Positions 4,832 through 49,412 of a stretch of DNA of 57,266 nt are shown one piece after another. The DNA is taken from assembly GCA_948469815.1 (NCBI GenBank), contig CAOKMR010000005.1, positions 1 through 57,266 of the forward strand. Reading direction: 5' to 3'. The stretch is from an uncultured Clostridiaceae bacterium. GTDB lineage: Bacteria; Bacillota; Clostridia; TANB77; CAG-508. Under the pieces are notes generated by a model, which was not told the DNA's origin, ran no database searches, and saw only the letters and a program-made list of their open reading frames with translations. Numbering within the stretch: the stretch's first letter is position 1; each line of letters begins with the position of its first letter. The position numbers and the translations under genes were made by a program.

Positions 4832-5278
4832 ATGAAGGACATAAAAAAAGGTACTATAGTTACTAGAAAATCATATAATGATGACATATTGTTTAGAGTA
4901 GAAGAAATAATAAATACAACACAAGGAAAATATGCCATACTAAAAGGAATAACTATTAGAATTAAAGCAAATTCTCCTATTGAAGACTTAACTATTGTAG
5001 ATAAGAGTATGGCAAAAAACGAATTTGATAGACTAAATAAAAAAATAGAAAGTAAAATAACAGAAAATAGAAATTTTGTAAATAACTATATAAATATATT
5101 ATGTGGAAAAATATTGCATCTGGATGGAGATCGACGTTATGCAGAAAAATCTGCTAAATACTATAGAAAAATGGGATTAAATGCTATTGTAAAAAGTGTT
5201 TCAGAAAATAAACAACCAATGGTCGTAGGTAATCTGGTAAAAAGATATAAACCAGATATACTTGTTATTACAGGTCAT
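4832..5278 (+). pseudogene. yabG: yabG, 5' half (sporulation protease), interrupted by the ICE
   Basis: Codons 1-149 match the N-terminal half of the spore-coat protease YabG: FRVEEI, YAILKG, LHLDGD, QPMVV and PDILVITGH. The good ribosome binding site AGTAGGAGG precedes the ATG. The match stops at His149 (CAT 5276-5278), where element DNA begins and adds a short foreign tail to a stop at 5305. The remainder resumes at CAT 46932. Joining at the shared CAT gives an in-frame protein of about 268 aa, close to the 290 aa of the Bacillus protein. YabG acts in the mother cell, processing coat and germination proteins. Confidence 0.93.
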
Positions 5279-5305
5279 CATCGGAAAGGTTATACCGAAA
5301 AATAA
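5268..5305 (+). other. attL of the ICE
   Basis: Left junction. Host yabG reads ACAGGTCAT up to 5278; element DNA then begins CATCGGAAAGG and contains the arm TATACCGAAAAA (about 5291-5302). The right junction holds the inverted arm TTTTTCGGTATA and the same CAT. Such inverted arms around a tiny core are typical of attP for large serine recombinases. Confidence 0.8.
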
Positions 5306-8241: not shown

Positions 8242-11200
8242 GTGTTAAAAATAACAACAAAAACTAAAAAGATATTAGCAATGTTAATTGTAATTATTAC
8301 ATTATTTACTATTGTTCAACCAGTTGTTTTTGGAGCAAATCACACAATATCTGGAAGCGGAAATGGTAAATTTATGGCTCGTCAATATGCTACAAAACTA
8401 AAAACCACAGACAATGTTGATCATGGAGAGAATGGAATAATAGCGAGAAGATTAATTATGACAGATAAAAACTGGAGTTTTGGAAATAAAGATGGAATAT
8501 TAGTATTCTGTGCCCAAATGGGAGTGCATTTTGACACTCGGAACAAGTTATGACGGCTCATACTATGTACCAACAACATCACAATTAAGACAAGGAGCAA
8601 AAGTGGCGTATTTTGGTTGGTATCAAGAACGTGGACAATATGGCTCAGATGGATATTTGCCAGATGATGCATTAAAACAATATGCTTTCACACAGCAACT
8701 TATATGGGAAACAATAGGTCAAAGTAGTGGACGATTTATAGATGACAATATTCAAAACGAATATGTTGCATTTAGAAATGAAGTAAATAGTAAAATGGCA
8801 AGAATGCAACAAAGACCTTCCTTTGATGGAACAACTGTTACACTAAAAACAGGAGAAACAACATTAACTGATAGTAAAGGAGTATTAGCAGATTACAAAA
8901 GTATTGATGTAATGGAGCAAGGAATAAGAATAACTCATAACAAAGGCGAAAATACAATGCAAATACAAGTTGGTGAGGATTGTACAGTAGAGAATTATAT
9001 AATAACAGATAATATGTTCAAAAACTGGGGACTAATTAAAGAAGAAACAGAAAACAAAAATACAACAGTATATCTTGAGTTTGCAAATGGAGTACAAGAT
9101 CAGTTATATTCTCTAGATTACAATGATCCAGTTTCTATGAGATTAAATTTATCAGTTGAGTCAAATGGAGGATTAGAAATAACCAAATTAGACAGTAACG
9201 GAACATTAATAGATGGAGCAATATTTAGAATAACAAGTGTGGAAGGATATGATAATACTGTTACAGTAACAAATGGAGAAATAGTTATTGAAGATTTAAA
9301 AGCAGGAATTTATACAATAAAAGAGGTGTCAGCACCTTATGGGTATCTATTAGATACTAAAAGTTATAATGTAGAGGTAAAATCTAATGAGATAGTAAAC
9401 AAAACAATTGCAAATAGTGAGCCTACAGGAAACCTCACAATAGAAAAAACAGATAAACAAACAGGAAATCATAATAGAGCAGATGGGACATCACATCACG
9501 GAGATGCAAGTATTGAAGGAGCAGTTTACACATTATATGCAAAAAACGATATATATAATGTAAGTAGAAGTTTAAAATATTTTTCTAAAGATGAGCCAAT
9601 TGCAACCTTCACATTTAATAAGTATGGAGTTGCTAGTGTAAAGATAACAAATACCAATACAAGAGCAGAAATCAGTGTAAAGGGAAATATACTGAAAGGA
9701 CTACCAATGGGAGAATACTATGCAAAAGAAACAATAGTTCCAACAGGTTATACACAGGACACAGATATATATAATTACACATTTTCATACCAAAACAGTA
9801 CAACAGCAGTAATTGAAGTTGCAGGAACAGTTAAGAATGTTGTACAAAAAGCACCATTTGAGGTTATCAAAGTTACAACAGATACAAACGACACAGCAAA
9901 AGTAGTTGAAGGAGCAGAGTTTACAGCAATACTAACAAAATATGTTGATTATTACAAAAGTTTTGACGAAGCACGAAAACACCTTGCAGAATTTGCAGAA
10001 GATGAATATTCTATTTTTAAGACAGGAACAGATGGACATGGAGTATCTGAACTGTTAGCCTATGGAGAATATACAGTTAATGAAACATATACACCAAGTC
10101 CAGAAATAAACAAAGTAGCAGAATTTTATGTTAGAATTGATAAAGACAGTAGAATACCAATAAAAGAATATGTAGAAAACGATTCGCCATTTTCTGCTTA
10201 TATAAAATTAGAGAAAAAGGACATAGAAACAGAAAAATATGTTATATATTCAAATGCAACATTTGAACTATATAGATTAAACGAAGATATAAAAAAATGG
10301 GAAAAAGTACAATGTAAAGTAAAAAATGAATACTTTGATACATGGACAACAGACGAAAAACGGTATCGCCATGACTGAAACAAAATTAGAAGCAGGCAGT
10401 TATAAACTAAATGAAATCAAAACTCCAACAGGTTATTTGCAACTAGATGAAGAATTAAGATTTGAAGTTAATAACAGAAATGCAACACTAGAATACGATT
10501 CTGACTGGGATGCTTGGATAACAGTAACTGCAAAAAATGAGAAACCAAAAGCAAAACTAGAACTAAAAAAAGTAATTAATTTAAGAGAGGATGTAGATCT
10601 TTCTTTAATAAAAAATATTGACTTTACAAAAATAGCATTTGACCTTGTTGCAAACGAGGATATAATCGACTTCGCAGACGGAAGTGTAATCTATAAAGCA
10701 GGGACAAAAGTTGGAAAATATTATCTAAATTTAGATGGAACTTTAACTATTGATAATCTAAAAATGGGTAAATACAATCTAAAAGAAGTTGAAACAATAG
10801 ATGGGGCAGTATTAAATGAAACAAAATATGATGTGATATTTGAACAGACAGATACAACGACAAAGGAATATACAGTAAATTTGAATATTGAAAATGAAAC
10901 AACAGTTATAGAAATATCGAAAATAGATATAACAGGAGAACAAGAAATTAAAGGAGCAAAATTAACAGTATTAAACGAAAATAATGAAATAATAGATACT
11001 TGGATATCAGAAGATAAACCACACAAAATCGAGGGGATAAAAGTGAATGAAAATCTGATATTAAGAGAAGAAATTGCCCCAAATGGATACGTTATAGCTA
11101 CAGATGTAAAATTTAAAATAGATAATACAGGTAAAGTTCAAAGAGTTGTAATGCAAGACAAAATTGTAGAAATATCAAAAATAGATATAGCAGGAAATGA

Positions 11201-12378
11201 AATTGAGGGAGCAGAACTTCAAGTTATTGATGAAGATAATAATGTAATTGACGAGTGGACATCTACAAAAGAGCCATATAGAATTAACAATTTAATAGAG
11301 GGACAAACTTATACACTAATTGAACAATATGCACCAGATGGATTTGTTATATCAAATGAAGTTAAATTTACTGTAACTACTGACAAAGAAACACAAGAAG
11401 TAAAAATGGTAGATAAAGTAGTTGAAATATCAAAACAAGATATTGCAGGAAACGAACTAGAGGGAGCTACTTTAGTTGTTACAAGCAATAAAACAAAGAA
11501 CATTATAGACAAATGGGTTTCTGGTAAAGAGCCACATAAAGTAAATGGTCTTATAGAAAACCAAGAATATATATTACACGAAGAAATAGTAGTAAATGGT
11601 TATGTAAAAGCTACTGATATAAAATTCATGGTAACAAATGATAAGGAAACTCAAAAAGTAGTAATGATTGACAAGGTATTGGAAGTCATAAAAACAGATT
11701 TAGTAACAGGCGAAGAATTAGAGGGAGCAGAACTAGAAGTTATAGATAAGGAAACAGGAGAAACAATAGACAAATGGATTTCTAGCAAAGAGCCTCATAA
11801 AGTTGTAGGATTAGAAGAAAATAAAACTTATATTCTAAAAGAAACAAATTGTCCTTATGGTTTTGAACAAGCAGAGGAGATCGAATTTACAGTTAGTGAA
11901 AACAAAGAAACACAGAAAATCGAAATGAAAGATATGCCTATAATGAAAAATGTACAATTAGTGAAAATAGATAGTAGCACAAAAGAGATAATTAAGAATA
12001 AGTTTATTTTTGGAATTTATGAGAATGAGGAATGTACAAAACTAATCAAAGAACTTGAAAGTAATAGCAAAAATGGAACAATTTTATTTGAAAATTTACG
12101 TTATGGAGTTTACTATATAAAAGAATTAAATGCACCAAAGAACTATCAAATATCAGATAAGATAGTAAAAATAGAAATAAATCATGAAGGGGTATATGCA
12201 GATAATATAGAACTTACAGAACAAGACGAAATATATTCATTTGAATTTCAAAATGAGAAAATAGATACACCAAAAACTCGGAGATAATATAATATGGATA
12301 ATTTTATTAACTATAACAGGAATATCTTTAATTAGCATAAGTTTGTATGAGATAAATAAGAGAAGAAAGAATAAATAG
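8242..12378 (+). CDS. SpaA/Cna-B-type sortase-anchored adhesin with three CGG frameshifts
   Basis: Start GTG 8242 behind TGGAGGAA, giving a signal peptide (basic residues, hydrophobic ILAMLIVIITLFTIV, then VFGANHT). Reading +1 at CGG 8539, 10361 and 12279 yields one protein of about 1,377 aa. After an N-terminal thioester-domain-like region it has many Cna-B/SpaA repeats, including five close copies of about 85 aa with EISKxDIAGNE and GYVxATDVKF-like edges. It ends in TPKTGD, a hydrophobic helix and RRKNK, a sorting signal that exists only after the third shift. Probably displayed on the cell wall by the class B sortase at 32508, aiding mating contact. Confidence 0.88.
8539..8542 (+). other. 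CGG +1 frameshift site in the adhesin, N-terminal (CGGA)
   Basis: Frame before: HFDT; skipping C 8539 gives GTSYDGSYY. Without the shift the protein stops at 8553. Preceding codon ACT. Confidence 0.85.
10361..10364 (+). other. CGG +1 frameshift site in the adhesin, middle (CGGT)
   Basis: TTDEK then GIAMTETKLEAGSY after skipping C 10361, matching the usual G-x-A-x-T-x-x-L-x-x-G-x-Y edge of Cna-B repeats. Preceding codon AAA. Confidence 0.88.
12279..12282 (+). other. CGG +1 frameshift site at the sortase motif (CGGA)
   Basis: The zero frame ends PKTRR-stop. Skipping C 12279 gives PKTGDN followed by a membrane helix and positive tail, i.e. the cell-wall sorting signal. Preceding codon ACT. Confidence 0.9.
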
Positions 12379-43863: not shown

Positions 43864-44235
43864 GTGGAAAGAGAGATATATAGAGGGGAAATATATTATG
43901 CAAGATTATATGAAACAGTAGGAAGTGAACAGTCTGGAGTTAGACCAGTTGTAATAGTTCAAAATAATACAGGAAATAGATATTCAAAAACAGTTATTAT
44001 TGTTCCATTAACAAAGAAAATTGAAACAAATGAAATACAGCCAACACATGTTATAGTTAAGGCATTTGGAAATATAAAATATGATTCAACAATACTAACT
44101 GAGCAAGTAAGAACAATAGACAAAAAAAGACTGGGAGAAAGAATTGGAACATTACCACATAGATATATAAAATACTTAGATGAAGCATTAAAAATTGCAC
44201 AAGGAATAAAGAATTATAGTGATATTAAGAAATAA
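43864..44235 (+). CDS. MazF/PemK-family toxin ribonuclease
   Basis: 123 aa from GTG 43864. REIYRGEIYYARL, GSEQSGVRPVVIVQNN, TVIIVPLTKK and the catalytic-region TEQVRTIDKKRL match MazF, an mRNA interferase. No MazE-like antitoxin gene precedes it; the region upstream is the candidate RNA. It may stabilise the ICE. The antitoxin could be elsewhere or the gene at 44280. Confidence 0.9.
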   Translation: MEREIYRGEIYYARLYETVGSEQSGVRPVVIVQNNTGNRYSKTVIIVPLTKKIETNEIQPTHVIVKAFGNIKYDSTILTEQVRTIDKKRLGERIGTLPHRYIKYLDEALKIAQGIKNYSDIKK

Positions 44236-44279
44236 GTATATTGATTACTTGTTTCTTTATTTATTGGAAAGGAATAGGA

Positions 44280-44657
44280 ATGGATGAAAAAATAGTTCAA
44301 AAATTAATAAGTCAAAGATATTCTGTAAAACAAATGATAGCTTATTTTATATTTGGGTATTTAAACACTGAAGATAAAGAGGAATTTAAAAATATATTAA
44401 ATTCGATTTCATCCCAAATAATAAAGATAGATAAAACAGAAATATTAAAAATGATAAGAGTAAAGTATATAGAAGATATTGATATTTACTGGAGATTAAC
44501 TGCCGAACAAATGCTTTGCTATGCCTATATAGTTTTTGAAAGTCTTATGAAAGAAAATCGAAAAATTCGAATACAAGATATAAAAAATGAGTTTATAGTG
44601 CTATCAAAGCTATACTCTCCTAGTAATGCAGTCGAATATGTAGAAAATATTAAGTAA
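44280..44657 (+). CDS. Hypothetical protein after mazF
   Basis: 125 aa from ATG 44280 (MDEKIVQKLISQRYSVK), with GGAAAGGAA as ribosome binding site. Helical and charged, no recognised domain. Its position after mazF leaves a role as antitoxin open, but MazF antitoxins are usually shorter and upstream. Confidence 0.65.
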   Translation: MDEKIVQKLISQRYSVKQMIAYFIFGYLNTEDKEEFKNILNSISSQIIKIDKTEILKMIRVKYIEDIDIYWRLTAEQMLCYAYIVFESLMKENRKIRIQDIKNEFIVLSKLYSPSNAVEYVENIK

Positions 44658-44714
44658 ACAATAGATGAATAATATAAAAAAGTGAGAATATGATTTTGTT
44701 AAGGAGGAATGCTT

Positions 44715-44828
44715 ATGAAATGTAAATATGAAATAAATTATACTTTTCCAAAATCATTATCATTTGAAGAAATAAAGGAAATTGTGTGCGAGAAAATTGC
44801 AAAGTTAATGATTTTAGATGAAAAATAA
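44715..44828 (+). CDS. Very small ORF before the recombinase
   Basis: 37 aa (MKCKYEINYTFPKSLSFEEI...) with a strong AAGGAGG 6 bp before the ATG. Small proteins next to large serine recombinases are often recombination directionality factors, but at this size it is only a candidate. Confidence 0.6.
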   Translation: MKCKYEINYTFPKSLSFEEIKEIVCEKIAKLMILDEK

Positions 44829-44923
44829 AAATCACACATTTTTATTTTTGATAAATAAAAAATATAATAATGGAGGTATTAAAATAGGCATTTAGCCGAA
44901 TCAATAGGAAAGGAAAGTTGATT

Positions 44924-46903
44924 ATGGTAATAAATGTATTTAAAGAAGGAAATGATGAAAATGATGCATTAGATAAGAATAATTATAGTATAAAAGAGGG
45001 AGATGATGATAGTGAGGTACAAAAAATAAAATCACATTTAGATATAACATATTTAAAATATGTTTCTGATAACATTAAATATTTATTAAAACTTAATATT
45101 ACAAATGATAATGAGTGCTTTGAAAAAAGTAATAAATATACTAAAGATAAAGAAACAGGAGATAAATATAGAGTAATTTTATATATAAGACTTTCTGTTG
45201 AGGATGGAGATGTAATTGATGGAGATGTTAGCAAGAGTATAAGAAATCAATTGTTAATTTTATTAGATGAATGTGAAAAGAGAGGTTGGGTTGTTGTTGC
45301 AATATTTTGTGAAGAAGGAATTTCTGGTGCAGATGATAATAGACCAGAATGGAATAAGTCTTTAAAGTTTTGTGAATATGGAAATACAGAAATTGTATTG
45401 TGCAAAAGCCAATCTAGATTTTCAAGAAGTATGGAAATGATAGAAAAATATTTACATAACGAATTTATTACATGGAATATAAGATTTGTAGGGTTAGTAG
45501 ATAGTACAGACACATCTGTTATAGGAAACAAAAAAACTAGACAGATAAATGGATTAGTAAATGAGTGGCAAGTAGAGGATCAATCAATAAACATAAGAGC
45601 AGTATTAAAAAATAAACAATCTAATGGTTTATTTACTGGTGCATTTGCTCCATACGGTTATCTAAAAGACCCAAAAGATAAATATCATTTTATAATAGAT
45701 GAAGATGCAGCAAGAGTTGTTAGAAAAATTTTCGAAATGTATGCAAGTGGAAACGGAGCAACTAAGATATGTTTATATTTGAATGAGAATAAAATACCAA
45801 TTCCTAGTATATATAAACATCAAAAAGGTTTAAAATTCAATTGTCCAACTGTTAAATATGATCAAAGAATAACATACCAAGTTGAAAAAGGAGATAGCTT
45901 AGTTGCAATAGCAGATAAATATCAATCAACAGTAAAAGAAATAATACAATATAATTCAATGGAAAGTGAAGAAATTACTGAAGGTCAGATAATAATAATA
46001 CCAGTTGTTCATGTATGGAGAACAAATACAATATATAATCTGTTAAAAAATGAGGTATATATTGGAACATTAATACAACATAAAAATGAAATTATAAGTT
46101 ATAAAAATAAAAAAGAAAGGAGTATTCCAAAAGAGCAAAGGATAGTAGTTCCACATTGTCATGAAGCTATAATAGATAAAGAAACATGGAATATAGTAAG
46201 TGCAAGATTTGAAAGATATAGAAAAGTAAAATCAAATAAAAAAGGAGAAATATCATTGTTTTCTGGAAAATTGAAATGTGGATGTTGTGGACACGCATTA
46301 TATAGAGATTATCATGAGAGGGGAAATAAAACATATTCTTATTGGTTATGTGGAAATAGATATGGAACTGCTAAATTTTTATGTAACAATAAAAAACTTG
46401 TTAATGAACAGGAGATAGAGAGAATATTACTAGATGAAATTAATAAACAATTGGATATATATTATGATAAATCATTAGTAGAAGAAAAGTATTATGAACA
46501 GAAAGTAGTTAATTCTTTAGAAGATGAAATAAAATTATTACAAAAAGAAAAGAAGGAATTAGAAAATAATATAAGTAAAAAGCAAAACACAATATCATTA
46601 CTATATGAAGATAGAGCGAATGGAATTATTGATTTAACAGAATTTACAATGATAAAAAATAAAAATAGTATAGATATTGGACATTTTCAAGAAAGACTAA
46701 GAAATATAGAAAGTGAATTATTAGACTTAAATAAGAAAAAACTAGAAAAGTATGATACAGAAAAAATATTAAAAAAATATAAAAAAATTGAAAGTCTAAC
46801 TAGAAGTATATTGGATGAATTTATATCAAAAATTCACATAGGCTATTATAATCCAGAAACAAAAACAAGAAAGATTGAAATAGAGTGGAATATAAGTACC
46901 TAA
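44924..46903 (+). CDS. Large serine recombinase with an inserted LysM domain
   Basis: 659 aa from ATG 44924 (AGGAAAGG upstream; TTG 44918 is too close). An 80-residue extension precedes the resolvase domain (YRVILYIRLSVED, catalytic Ser91; CEEGISGADDNRPEW; SQSRFSRSMEMIE). The recombinase domain (LFTGAFAPYGY, RVVRKIFEMYASG) is interrupted at residues 318-362 by a LysM motif (YQVEKGDSLVAIADKY ... EGQIIIIP) and then continues (NTIYNLLKNEVYIGTLIQ, CGCCGHALYRDYH zinc ribbon, coiled coil). It lies 10-30 bp from attR, so it should be the integrase/excisionase of this ICE. Confidence 0.93.
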   Translation: MVINVFKEGNDENDALDKNNYSIKEGDDDSEVQKIKSHLDITYLKYVSDNIKYLLKLNITNDNECFEKSNKYTKDKETGDKYRVILYIRLSVEDGDVIDGDVSKSIRNQLLILLDECEKRGWVVVAIFCEEGISGADDNRPEWNKSLKFCEYGNTEIVLCKSQSRFSRSMEMIEKYLHNEFITWNIRFVGLVDSTDTSVIGNKKTRQINGLVNEWQVEDQSINIRAVLKNKQSNGLFTGAFAPYGYLKDPKDKYHFIIDEDAARVVRKIFEMYASGNGATKICLYLNENKIPIPSIYKHQKGLKFNCPTVKYDQRITYQVEKGDSLVAIADKYQSTVKEIIQYNSMESEEITEGQIIIIPVVHVWRTNTIYNLLKNEVYIGTLIQHKNEIISYKNKKERSIPKEQRIVVPHCHEAIIDKETWNIVSARFERYRKVKSNKKGEISLFSGKLKCGCCGHALYRDYHERGNKTYSYWLCGNRYGTAKFLCNNKKLVNEQEIERILLDEINKQLDIYYDKSLVEEKYYEQKVVNSLEDEIKLLQKEKKELENNISKKQNTISLLYEDRANGIIDLTEFTMIKNKNSIDIGHFQERLRNIESELLDLNKKKLEKYDTEKILKKYKKIESLTRSILDEFISKIHIGYYNPETKTRKIEIEWNIST

Positions 46904-46905
46904 TA

Positions 46906-46945
46906 TTTTTTCGGTATATTAAAAACTAGCACATGATGGAATGAT
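46906..46945 (+). other. attR of the ICE
   Basis: Element arm TTTTTCGGTATA (about 46906-46918), then CTAGCACAT; yabG resumes at CAT 46932 (HDGMIKNG). The arm is the inverted copy of the arm in attL. Shared core: CAT. Confidence 0.8.
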
Positions 46946-47294
46946 AAAAAATGGAACAGGGTTTACAGACATATATAATTATAGAAATTCTAGATATTTT
47001 ATAAATACAGTAAAAGAAGCGAGAAGAGCTTCGGTAGATAAAGATTTAGTCATATTTGCAGGTGCATGCCAAAGTTTTTTTGAAGCAATTATGGAATCAG
47101 GTGCAAATTTTGCTTCATCTCCAGCGAGAGTTTTAATAGATTTTATGGATCCATTAACAATTGCAGAAAAAGTTGCAATAACCTCAGAAGAAAAAAATGT
47201 CACAATGAAAGAAATATCTTATTTACTAAAAGACGATAACAAAAGAGTTGGAGGTATAACTTCAAGGGGAAGAAAGAAAAAATATACAATATAA
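46932..47294 (+). pseudogene. yabG: yabG, 3' half
   Basis: Encodes the C-terminal 120 residues of YabG: HDGMIKNGTGFTDIYNYRNS, DLVIFAGACQSFFEAIMESGANFASSPARVLI and DPLTIAEKVAITSEEKNVTM. It joins the 5' half (4832-5278) at the CAT codon in frame once the element is removed. No promoter or start of its own; the ATG at 46941 has no ribosome binding site. Confidence 0.93.
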
Positions 47295-47867: not shown

Positions 47868-49412
47868 ATGAAGGTAGAAACAGTAAAGAAAAATATATGT
47901 ATAAATAGAATAGTAACTCAGAAAATACAAAATTTTATATTAGAAGAGGATGCTATTATTCCAGATATAAAGCCTGATATATTAAAGCCAGTAAGTACAA
48001 GTGGTAATGTATGCATATATAGAAAAGAAGTATCAGATGGAAAGATAAAATTAGATGGAAATGTAAATGTTTACTTAATTTATTTAGCAGATAGTGAAAC
48101 AGATAACATAAGAGGAATAAACACAAATATTGACTTTAAACAAATAATTGAATGCAAAGAAGCATTAAACGGAATGAATGCTAATGAGAAAGTTACAGTA
48201 AAATCAATAGAATGCAAAGTTTTAAATGGAAGAAAAGTAAATTTAAGTATACAACTAGAAGTAGAAATAACTTTATATGCTAACGAAGATTTGGACATAG
48301 TAAATAATATTCAAAACATAAAAGATATCCAAGAGATTAGAAAAAATGTAAAATTCAACTCTGTAATTGGTAGTAATTCTACAAAAACATATGCAAAAGA
48401 AACAATAAAAATTGATTCAGGAGATAACTTAGCAGAAATATTAAGAGTAGACTTTAGTATTATTAATAAAGATAGTAAGATGAGTTATAACAAAATATTA
48501 GCAAAAGCAGATGCAGACGTTAAGATAATGTATCTAACAGAAGATAATAGAATTAGAAATGTAGAAGAGAAAATTCCAATAATGGGATTTGTTGAAATGC
48601 TTAATGTATCTGATAATGATATATGTGATACAAAATATACAATTAGAAATATATTAGTGAAGCCTAATTCAGAGGAGGAACATTCTATATATGTTGAAAT
48701 AGAATTAGATGTATCATGTAATGCAATAAGAGAAGAAGAAATAGAGATATTAGAAGATTTATATAGTCCAAGTATGAACCTAGAGTTTAATTCTAAAAAT
48801 ATAGTAACAATGGTAGATAAAAGTAACAAAAATGATGTATATGAAATAAGAGAAAAAATGCAAATACAAGAACTAGCAGGGGAAAAAATAAGAGACATAA
48901 GAATTACACCTAACATTAATAGTGCAACTATTTCTAGGGGAAAAATAAAATATGATGGAGAAATAAAGGTAGATTTTTTAATTACTTCTAACAATCAAAC
49001 AACAGTAGAAGGAATAACCAAAACTATACCAATTATGTACGTAATGGACTATGAAGAGGTTACAGAAAGTAGTAAAATAGATACAAATATAGAAATCGCA
49101 ATGCAAGATTTTGTTATCGAAGACTCAGAAGTCACACTAAACATTAACTTGAATTTTGAGGTGAGTCAATATAATCAAATAAATATGAACATTATAGAGG
49201 ATGTAAATGTTAATGAAGAGGAATGTACTGAAAATCCATATAGTATGACAATTTATTTTGTTAAACCAGGAGATAGCTTATGGAAAATTGCTAAGAAATA
49301 TAGGAGTACGATAGAAGATATAATGAGATTAAATGAAATAGAAGATCCAGATAAAATTGATGTTGGAATGCAATTATTTATACCAAAATATGTTTGCACA
49401 AAAAGTAATTAA
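47868..49412 (+). CDS. sipL: SipL, SpoIVA-interacting spore coat protein
   Basis: 514 aa. Three DUF3794-type beta domains (EEDAIIPDIKPDILKPV; then repeats with VKSIECKVLNGRKVNLSIQLEVE) and a C-terminal LysM domain (YFVKPGDSLWKIAKKYRSTIEDIMRLNEIE, then MQLFIP). This is the layout of SipL, which binds SpoIVA through its LysM domain to attach the clostridial coat. It starts behind AAGGAGG. The LysM shares GDSL and Y-x-ST-x-xxI with the LysM in the recombinase at 44924. Confidence 0.93.
   Translation: MKVETVKKNICINRIVTQKIQNFILEEDAIIPDIKPDILKPVSTSGNVCIYRKEVSDGKIKLDGNVNVYLIYLADSETDNIRGINTNIDFKQIIECKEALNGMNANEKVTVKSIECKVLNGRKVNLSIQLEVEITLYANEDLDIVNNIQNIKDIQEIRKNVKFNSVIGSNSTKTYAKETIKIDSGDNLAEILRVDFSIINKDSKMSYNKILAKADADVKIMYLTEDNRIRNVEEKIPIMGFVEMLNVSDNDICDTKYTIRNILVKPNSEEEHSIYVEIELDVSCNAIREEEIEILEDLYSPSMNLEFNSKNIVTMVDKSNKNDVYEIREKMQIQELAGEKIRDIRITPNINSATISRGKIKYDGEIKVDFLITSNNQTTVEGITKTIPIMYVMDYEEVTESSKIDTNIEIAMQDFVIEDSEVTLNINLNFEVSQYNQINMNIIEDVNVNEEECTENPYSMTIYFVKPGDSLWKIAKKYRSTIEDIMRLNEIEDPDKIDVGMQLFIPKYVCTKSN

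Follow-up and report, generated by a model that had tools for sequence, protein, structure and literature searches.

A LysM domain within the DNA-binding domain of a large serine recombinase encoded by an element in yabG

A serine recombinase gene next to the sporulation gene yabG encodes a LysM domain, and this locus raises the question of what such a domain does in a DNA recombinase. LysM folds usually bind GlcNAc-containing glycans. The original prediction proposed that the domain tethers the recombinase to a sporulation-specific partner such as SpoIVA. The window analyzed here is a stretch of 57,266 nucleotides from an uncultured Clostridiaceae bacterium, and the recombinase with its domains, the companion ORF, the element ends, yabG and sipL lie on its forward (+) strand.

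The gene spans positions 44924–46903 and encodes 659 amino acids from the ATG at 44924 or 661 amino acids from a TTG at 44918. The ATG is the likely start and fits the residue numbering of the original prediction. The Resolvase catalytic domain (PF00239, E-value 5e-16; 45173–45628, residues 86–237) contains an RLS motif (45194–45196) with the putative nucleophile Ser93, which is invariant in the recombinase alignment. The Recombinase domain (PF07508, residues 262–432) is split by the LysM match. Its first part (45701–45854) includes helices in the region 262–302 of the AlphaFold2 model; its second part (46010–46213) starts with the recognition helix VWRTNTIYNLL, as aligned with SprA/YokA. A zinc ribbon domain follows (PF13408, E-value 2.8e-12; 46256–46444, residues 447–509). 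All three Pfam matches are above their cut-offs and the model shows long helices at residues 518–614, which identifies the protein as a large serine recombinase.

The LysM domain (45875–46003; residues 320–362 of the 661-residue frame) matches PF01476 with an E-value of 9.2e-11 and 42 bits, well above the Pfam cut-off of 20.9 bits. The predicted structure shows the β-α-α-β fold at residues 317–362, with β-strands at 317–321 and 358–362 and helices at 328–334 and 339–345. The pLDDT of this block is ~77–87. The AlphaFold2 model of the whole recombinase is weak (pLDDT 70, pTM 0.46), so that the fold of the domain alone was used and its position relative to DNA is unreliable. Solved LysM domains superpose on the model with 0.7–1.1 Å over 45–50 residues (pdb entry 4uz2 with 0.8 Å over 48 residues, Z-score 10.1). 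Two further genomes of the genus encode a recombinase with 100% identity, and homologues with 45–73% identity carry the LysM domain at the same place; it is thus not an artefact of assembly or chance. A chance match or a frameshift artefact is also ruled out by the E-value, the fold and the 17 homologous loci. The presence of a LysM domain in this serine recombinase, as first noticed, is therefore confirmed.

Its location, on the other hand, had to be corrected. The domain had been placed between the recombinase domain and the segment preceding the zinc ribbon; it lies inside the recombinase domain, before the recognition helix. Aligning SprA/YokA, the integrase of SPbeta (pdb entry 9dxh), with a profile built from LysM-less relatives puts the insertion point between IPTPSG and KKRWNQYTI of SprA. 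The insert occupies the turn directly before the helix that starts with a conserved Trp. SprA (pdb entries 9dxh, 9dxd and 9y66) is both the best full-length structural match (Z-score ~15–16) and the best sequence match over the full length in the PDB. It has a short turn (SG-KK) where the window recombinase has ~50 residues of LysM. A PDB search with a LysM-less homologue (L041) by itself returned nothing useful. In the LI integrase, helix αH of the recombinase domain touches the major groove via Tyr207 and Asn208 (PMC3783163). From its motif, we read the conserved-Trp helix as the probable counterpart of this αH. The turn before the recognition helix is tolerant to inserts: two further recombinases (L079 and L092) have an unrelated insert of ~150 residues, belonging to no known family, at the same turn. 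A collagen-like repeat gene adjoins L079.

The recombinase gene lies at the right end of an integrated element of ~41.7 kb (5276–46934), which is bounded by two CAT crossover cores. On the left lies the 5' part of yabG (4832–5278, ending with ITGH, or to 5302 at its widest; TIGR02855, 4.5e-33; PF05582, 8.1e-37) and on the right its 3' part (46932–47294, beginning with HDGMIKNG, or from 46941 at its narrowest; TIGR02855, 3.4e-35). At attL, TTACAGGTCAT is followed directly by CATCGG with the core at 5276–5278, whereas the empty site is TTACAGGTCATGATGG; at attR, CTAGCA is followed by CATGATGG with the core at 46932–46934. The left arm of the element, TATACCGAAAAA (5291–5302), reads as an inverted copy of the right arm, TTTTTCGGTATA (46907–46918). 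The empty site TTACAGGTCATGATGG is found in yabG of a genome of the same genus (G001, L129). Joining the flanks at the common CAT yields an uninterrupted, in-frame YabG of 268 residues with 95% identity to the intact YabG of G001. Thus, the element splits a sporulation gene that can be rejoined in frame. Separately, a second partial yabG copy (residues 31–101, 96% identical) is present at the contig start (94–306); it is either a partial duplication or an assembly artefact.

The element carries ParA/ParB, a relaxase, helicases and proteins with SpaA folds and therefore looks mobilizable or conjugative, not like a prophage. In a sample of its gene content, ten scanned proteins gave one relaxase and no match to a phage structural family. 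Two cargo proteins (8510–12287) contain repeated, prealbumin-like SpaA domains (up to 7), resembling pilin. Upstream of the recombinase, a PemK/MazF-like toxin gene and an ORF of 138 residues are present at 43864–44657; similar PemK genes also precede the recombinases of five other loci (L033, L037, L038, L045 and L046).

The closest known counterpart by insertion site is yin in yabG of Clostridium botulinum V73, a prophage with its own large serine recombinase whose excision restores yabG (PMC10747680). Both elements lie inside yabG and bring their own large serine recombinase. In yin, however, the recombinase gene is located by the 5' end of yabG, whereas it is at the 3' junction in the window, and the published description of the yin recombinase names Resolvase, Recombinase and zinc ribbon domains alone (PMC10747680). 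With a relaxase, no match to a phage structural family in the sampled content and a recombinase on the 3' side, the window element differs from yin. Other intervening elements of sporulation genes are skin in sigK (serine recombinase SpoIVCA in B. subtilis; CD1231 with the directionality factor CD1234 in C. difficile), vfbin of B. weihenstephanensis, gin in gerE and SPbeta in spsM (SprA/SprB). Like the window element, these place a serine recombinase in a sporulation gene; where one is known, they use a small directionality protein. No LysM is reported for their recombinases. We read the recombinase described here as that of an element which is integrative, probably mobilizable and broadly similar in kind to skin, vfbin and yin.

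To place the domain in a family context, homologues were collected. Seventeen loci with 49–100% identity over the whole protein were recovered by scanning GTDB genomes, and a search of a Bacilli family added L114 and L115. All of these carry the LysM domain except L041. Counting the window and leaving out the two copies identical to it, 18 LysM recombinases are present at 17 loci; the hosts are metagenome-assembled genomes of Clostridia and Bacilli. Recombinases on viral contigs are merely ~30–36% identical and of normal length, and plasmid records gave no match for the LysM part.

Sporulation genes are the insertion site at 14 of the 17 loci: cwlD at eight, yabG at three and dpaB at three. 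This agrees with the expectation that the architecture would track integration into sporulation genes. The yabG loci, with gene remnants alongside, are the window, L039 and L044. The 3' end of dpaB/spoVFB was found beside L034 (2e-7) and L036 (1e-10), and L035 was assigned by similarity. The cwlD remnant was identified with TIGR02883 at L037, L043 and L114, and the same remnant lies beside L038, L040, L042 and L047. In genome G307, cwlD holds two elements in tandem, and L046, which might be taken for an exception lacking a target, belongs to the first of them; the CwlD N-terminus is encoded upstream at C1:104616. The second element, with the LysM-less recombinase L125, ends in the remainder of cwlD. 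One LysM and one LysM-less element are thus stacked in a single cwlD (G307:C1, ~104616–123300; L127 and L128), and two excisions would be needed to restore this gene. The remaining three loci are a peroxiredoxin gene (L033), comEC (L045) and one site with no gene assigned (L115). In comEC, two LysM recombinases are arranged in tandem (L045:8001–11954), both with degenerate LysM domains. No report of cwlD as a target of intervening elements was found in the literature searched.

The preference for sporulation genes would suit a domain that holds the recombinase to a sporulation-specific protein of the mother cell, for example SpoIVA, and so confines excision to sporulating mother cells. SipL, whose LysM domain is known to bind SpoIVA (PMC6436350), is indeed encoded nearby, as originally described (47868–49412; SPOCS domains and a C-terminal LysM with GDSLW by Pfam). 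LysM-less recombinases, however, use the same genes. L041 is nested in the LysM clade and has no LysM, yet lies in yabG, and both halves of this gene can be joined in frame. A LysM-less sister clade (L123 and L125) is found in cwlD at the same motif as the LysM elements (TIGR02883, 2.4e-54 and 2.3e-55). The LysM domain as the cause of sporulation targeting is therefore not supported, and we reject it. L120 and L122 interrupt Amidase_3 genes, again at HGG, and the LysM-less L074 lies in a cwlD-like gene with a weak match. The HGG motif of cwlD is occupied by two recombinase clades (L037, L038, L040, L042, L043, L046, L047, L114, L123 and L125). L073 of the sister clade is found in an aspartokinase gene. 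Other LysM-less recombinases of the bacterial family (L075, L076, L077 and L095) lie in a Mn-catalase gene, which we take to be cotJC-like; NCBIfam gave no confirmation of these genes as cotJC. Furthermore, two LysM elements are inserted in genes unrelated to sporulation (peroxiredoxin and comEC).

SpoIVA itself gives little help. It is present in 16 of 17 hosts, the exception being the host of the LysM-less L041 (probably G398, a genome 87% complete), which is in line with a restriction of the architecture to sporulating hosts. This part of the original prediction stood, but it says little because nearly the whole bacterial family has SpoIVA (278 of 292 genomes), and host SpoIVA is ruled out as a telling correlate. 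SipL was found in 10 of 17 hosts and not found in the other seven. SpoIVA coats the forespore surface, which would be an odd place for holding a chromosomal recombinase.

The domain itself also differs from that of SipL. In C. difficile SipL, Trp475 of the LysM domain must be aromatic for function and the W475E variant reduces heat-resistant spores about 100-fold (PMC6436350). At the equivalent position after GD(S/T)L, no recombinase LysM has an aromatic residue; Val is present in the window and Ile, Val, Leu, Glu or Lys in the others. In SipL, SpoVID and SafA, which are cytoplasmic sporulation proteins of the mother cell, the LysM domain is terminal, whereas in the recombinase it is internal to the DNA-binding domain, net acidic and without the SpoIVA-binding aromatic residue of SipL. 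The best NCBIfam matches of the recombinase LysM are YneA and SpoVID rather than SipL. It may or may not have been recruited from the neighboring sipL; a domain of this length does not support a phylogeny. Taken with the LysM-less elements in cwlD and yabG, the missing aromatic residue makes a tether of the SpoIVA type very unlikely, and the tie between the recombinase and sporulation does not seem to depend on the LysM domain. It is the recombinase group at large, with its target genes, that is linked to sporulation, and the LysM domain is an added module. A looser role in gating excision, judged from these comparisons, is still conceivable.

The fold would also allow a different ligand. The chitin- or GlcNAc-bound LysM domains of pdb entries 4uz3 and 4b8v superpose on the recombinase LysM model and cwlD is a cortex gene, so that cytoplasmic binding of a muropeptide or cell-wall precursor might couple recombination to wall or cortex synthesis. 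We consider this highly improbable: none of yabG, dpaB, the peroxiredoxin gene and comEC is a wall gene, and the sisters in cwlD manage without LysM. Improbable as well is a broader version, in which the LysM domain is a cytoplasmic sensor or docking module that responds to a mother-cell component during sporulation (either a wall precursor or a coat morphogenetic protein contacted otherwise than by SipL) and adds a cell-type control over excision from cwlD, yabG and dpaB that the LysM-less relatives lack.

Binding to DNA is not suggested by the properties of the domain either. The net charge of the recombinase LysM domains is -2 to -6, that of the remainder of the recombinase domain +8 to +17. 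The arm motif GGTATA beside the recombinase stop codon (TTGGTATA) is common to members with and without LysM; hence the LysM domain does not mark a different DNA specificity. An addition for DNA binding is unlikely on both counts. Being acidic on a basic DNA-binding domain, the LysM domain more likely touches a protein or the enzyme itself than DNA.

It may also touch nothing in particular. As a passenger, the domain would be a neutral insert in a permissive turn, folded merely because misfolding would harm the enzyme. It has been lost once naturally (L041), it diverges faster than the catalytic domain, it is degenerate in L045 with an extra loop of 14–17 residues, and the unrelated insert of L079 and L092 occupies the same position. 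Against this, 18 recombinases retain the LysM domain, although their overall identity falls to 45% and the target gene has changed several times, and its core and acidic charge are conserved. On the recombinase tree, the LysM label changes twice compared with 11.6 changes expected by shuffling, for which a single gain in the clade's ancestor and a single loss in L041 is the best reading. The L041 element is perhaps inactive, and loss of the LysM domain could then have followed loss of function. The ω of the LysM segment (Nei-Gojobori, informative pairs) is ~0.1–0.7 and mostly below 0.4, similar to the zinc ribbon and the coiled coil and above the catalytic domain. By this measure the LysM domain is kept under purifying selection, but loosely, and this may reflect just the folding requirement of the insert. 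Taken together, a passenger is rather unlikely, and we favor a regulatory domain with modest confidence.

For both the timing and the direction of excision, a small ORF upstream of the recombinase is a better candidate than the LysM domain. This companion ORF (44709–44828; 37–39 residues from an ATG at 44715 or 44709) has no Pfam or NCBIfam match. At each of the 15 clade loci whose upstream DNA is readable, an ORF of 35–48 codons immediately precedes the recombinase, and it is weakly matched at the same place in the LysM-less L074 (1.2e-4) and L073 (0.0067). The smallest yabG element (L039, ~3.2 kb) consists of an ORF of 145 residues, the companion ORF, the recombinase and little else. By analogy with CD1234 and SprB, the companion ORF product is a candidate recombination directionality factor. 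The LysM domain as its docking site is not favored, since the ORF is also present in recombinase loci that lack LysM (L041 and, by weak matches, L073 and L074).

In four cwlD elements (L037, L040, L042 and L046) the companion ORF is preceded by GAATATT-N14-CATAATTT/CT, which is close to the sigma-E consensus. These boxes go back to common descent and, in some members, partly overlap the old pemK end; they are suggestive only. In the window, no sporulation promoter stood out clearly. A TATAAT-like sequence and a conserved leader are found upstream of the recombinase, an arrangement that would fit constant expression. The leader lies between the companion ORF and the recombinase (44830–44923 in the window, with equivalents elsewhere; AAGCATTTAGCCGTATCAATG... 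or AGCATTARATCATAATTTAAAGG) and is possibly a regulatory RNA or an operator.

The reading that we prefer, and hold to be somewhat more probable than its negation, is that of a captured regulatory module. An ancestor of the clade acquired the LysM domain once, in the insert-tolerant turn directly before the DNA-recognition helix. There, on the surface of the enzyme, it would serve for docking or regulation and adjust synapsis or directionality, neither selecting the target gene nor being essential for recombination. The timing of excision would more likely be set by the small companion protein encoded directly upstream.

The LysM-bearing large serine recombinase is genuine and apparently unreported, as the literature search gave no paper linking LysM to this enzyme family. 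A large serine recombinase can thus keep a foreign folded domain beside its DNA-recognition helix over long evolution. The same position accepts other domains. Both points are of use in the study of synapsis and in integrase engineering. Additionally, the range of known spore-gene intervening elements is widened by a single clade that has switched among cwlD, yabG and dpaB as targets in uncultured Clostridia and Bacilli of the gut. The insertions interrupt codons of conserved motifs, namely HGG in CwlD and ITGHDG in YabG. Since these codons are broken by the elements, the hosts may need site-specific excision to make spores.
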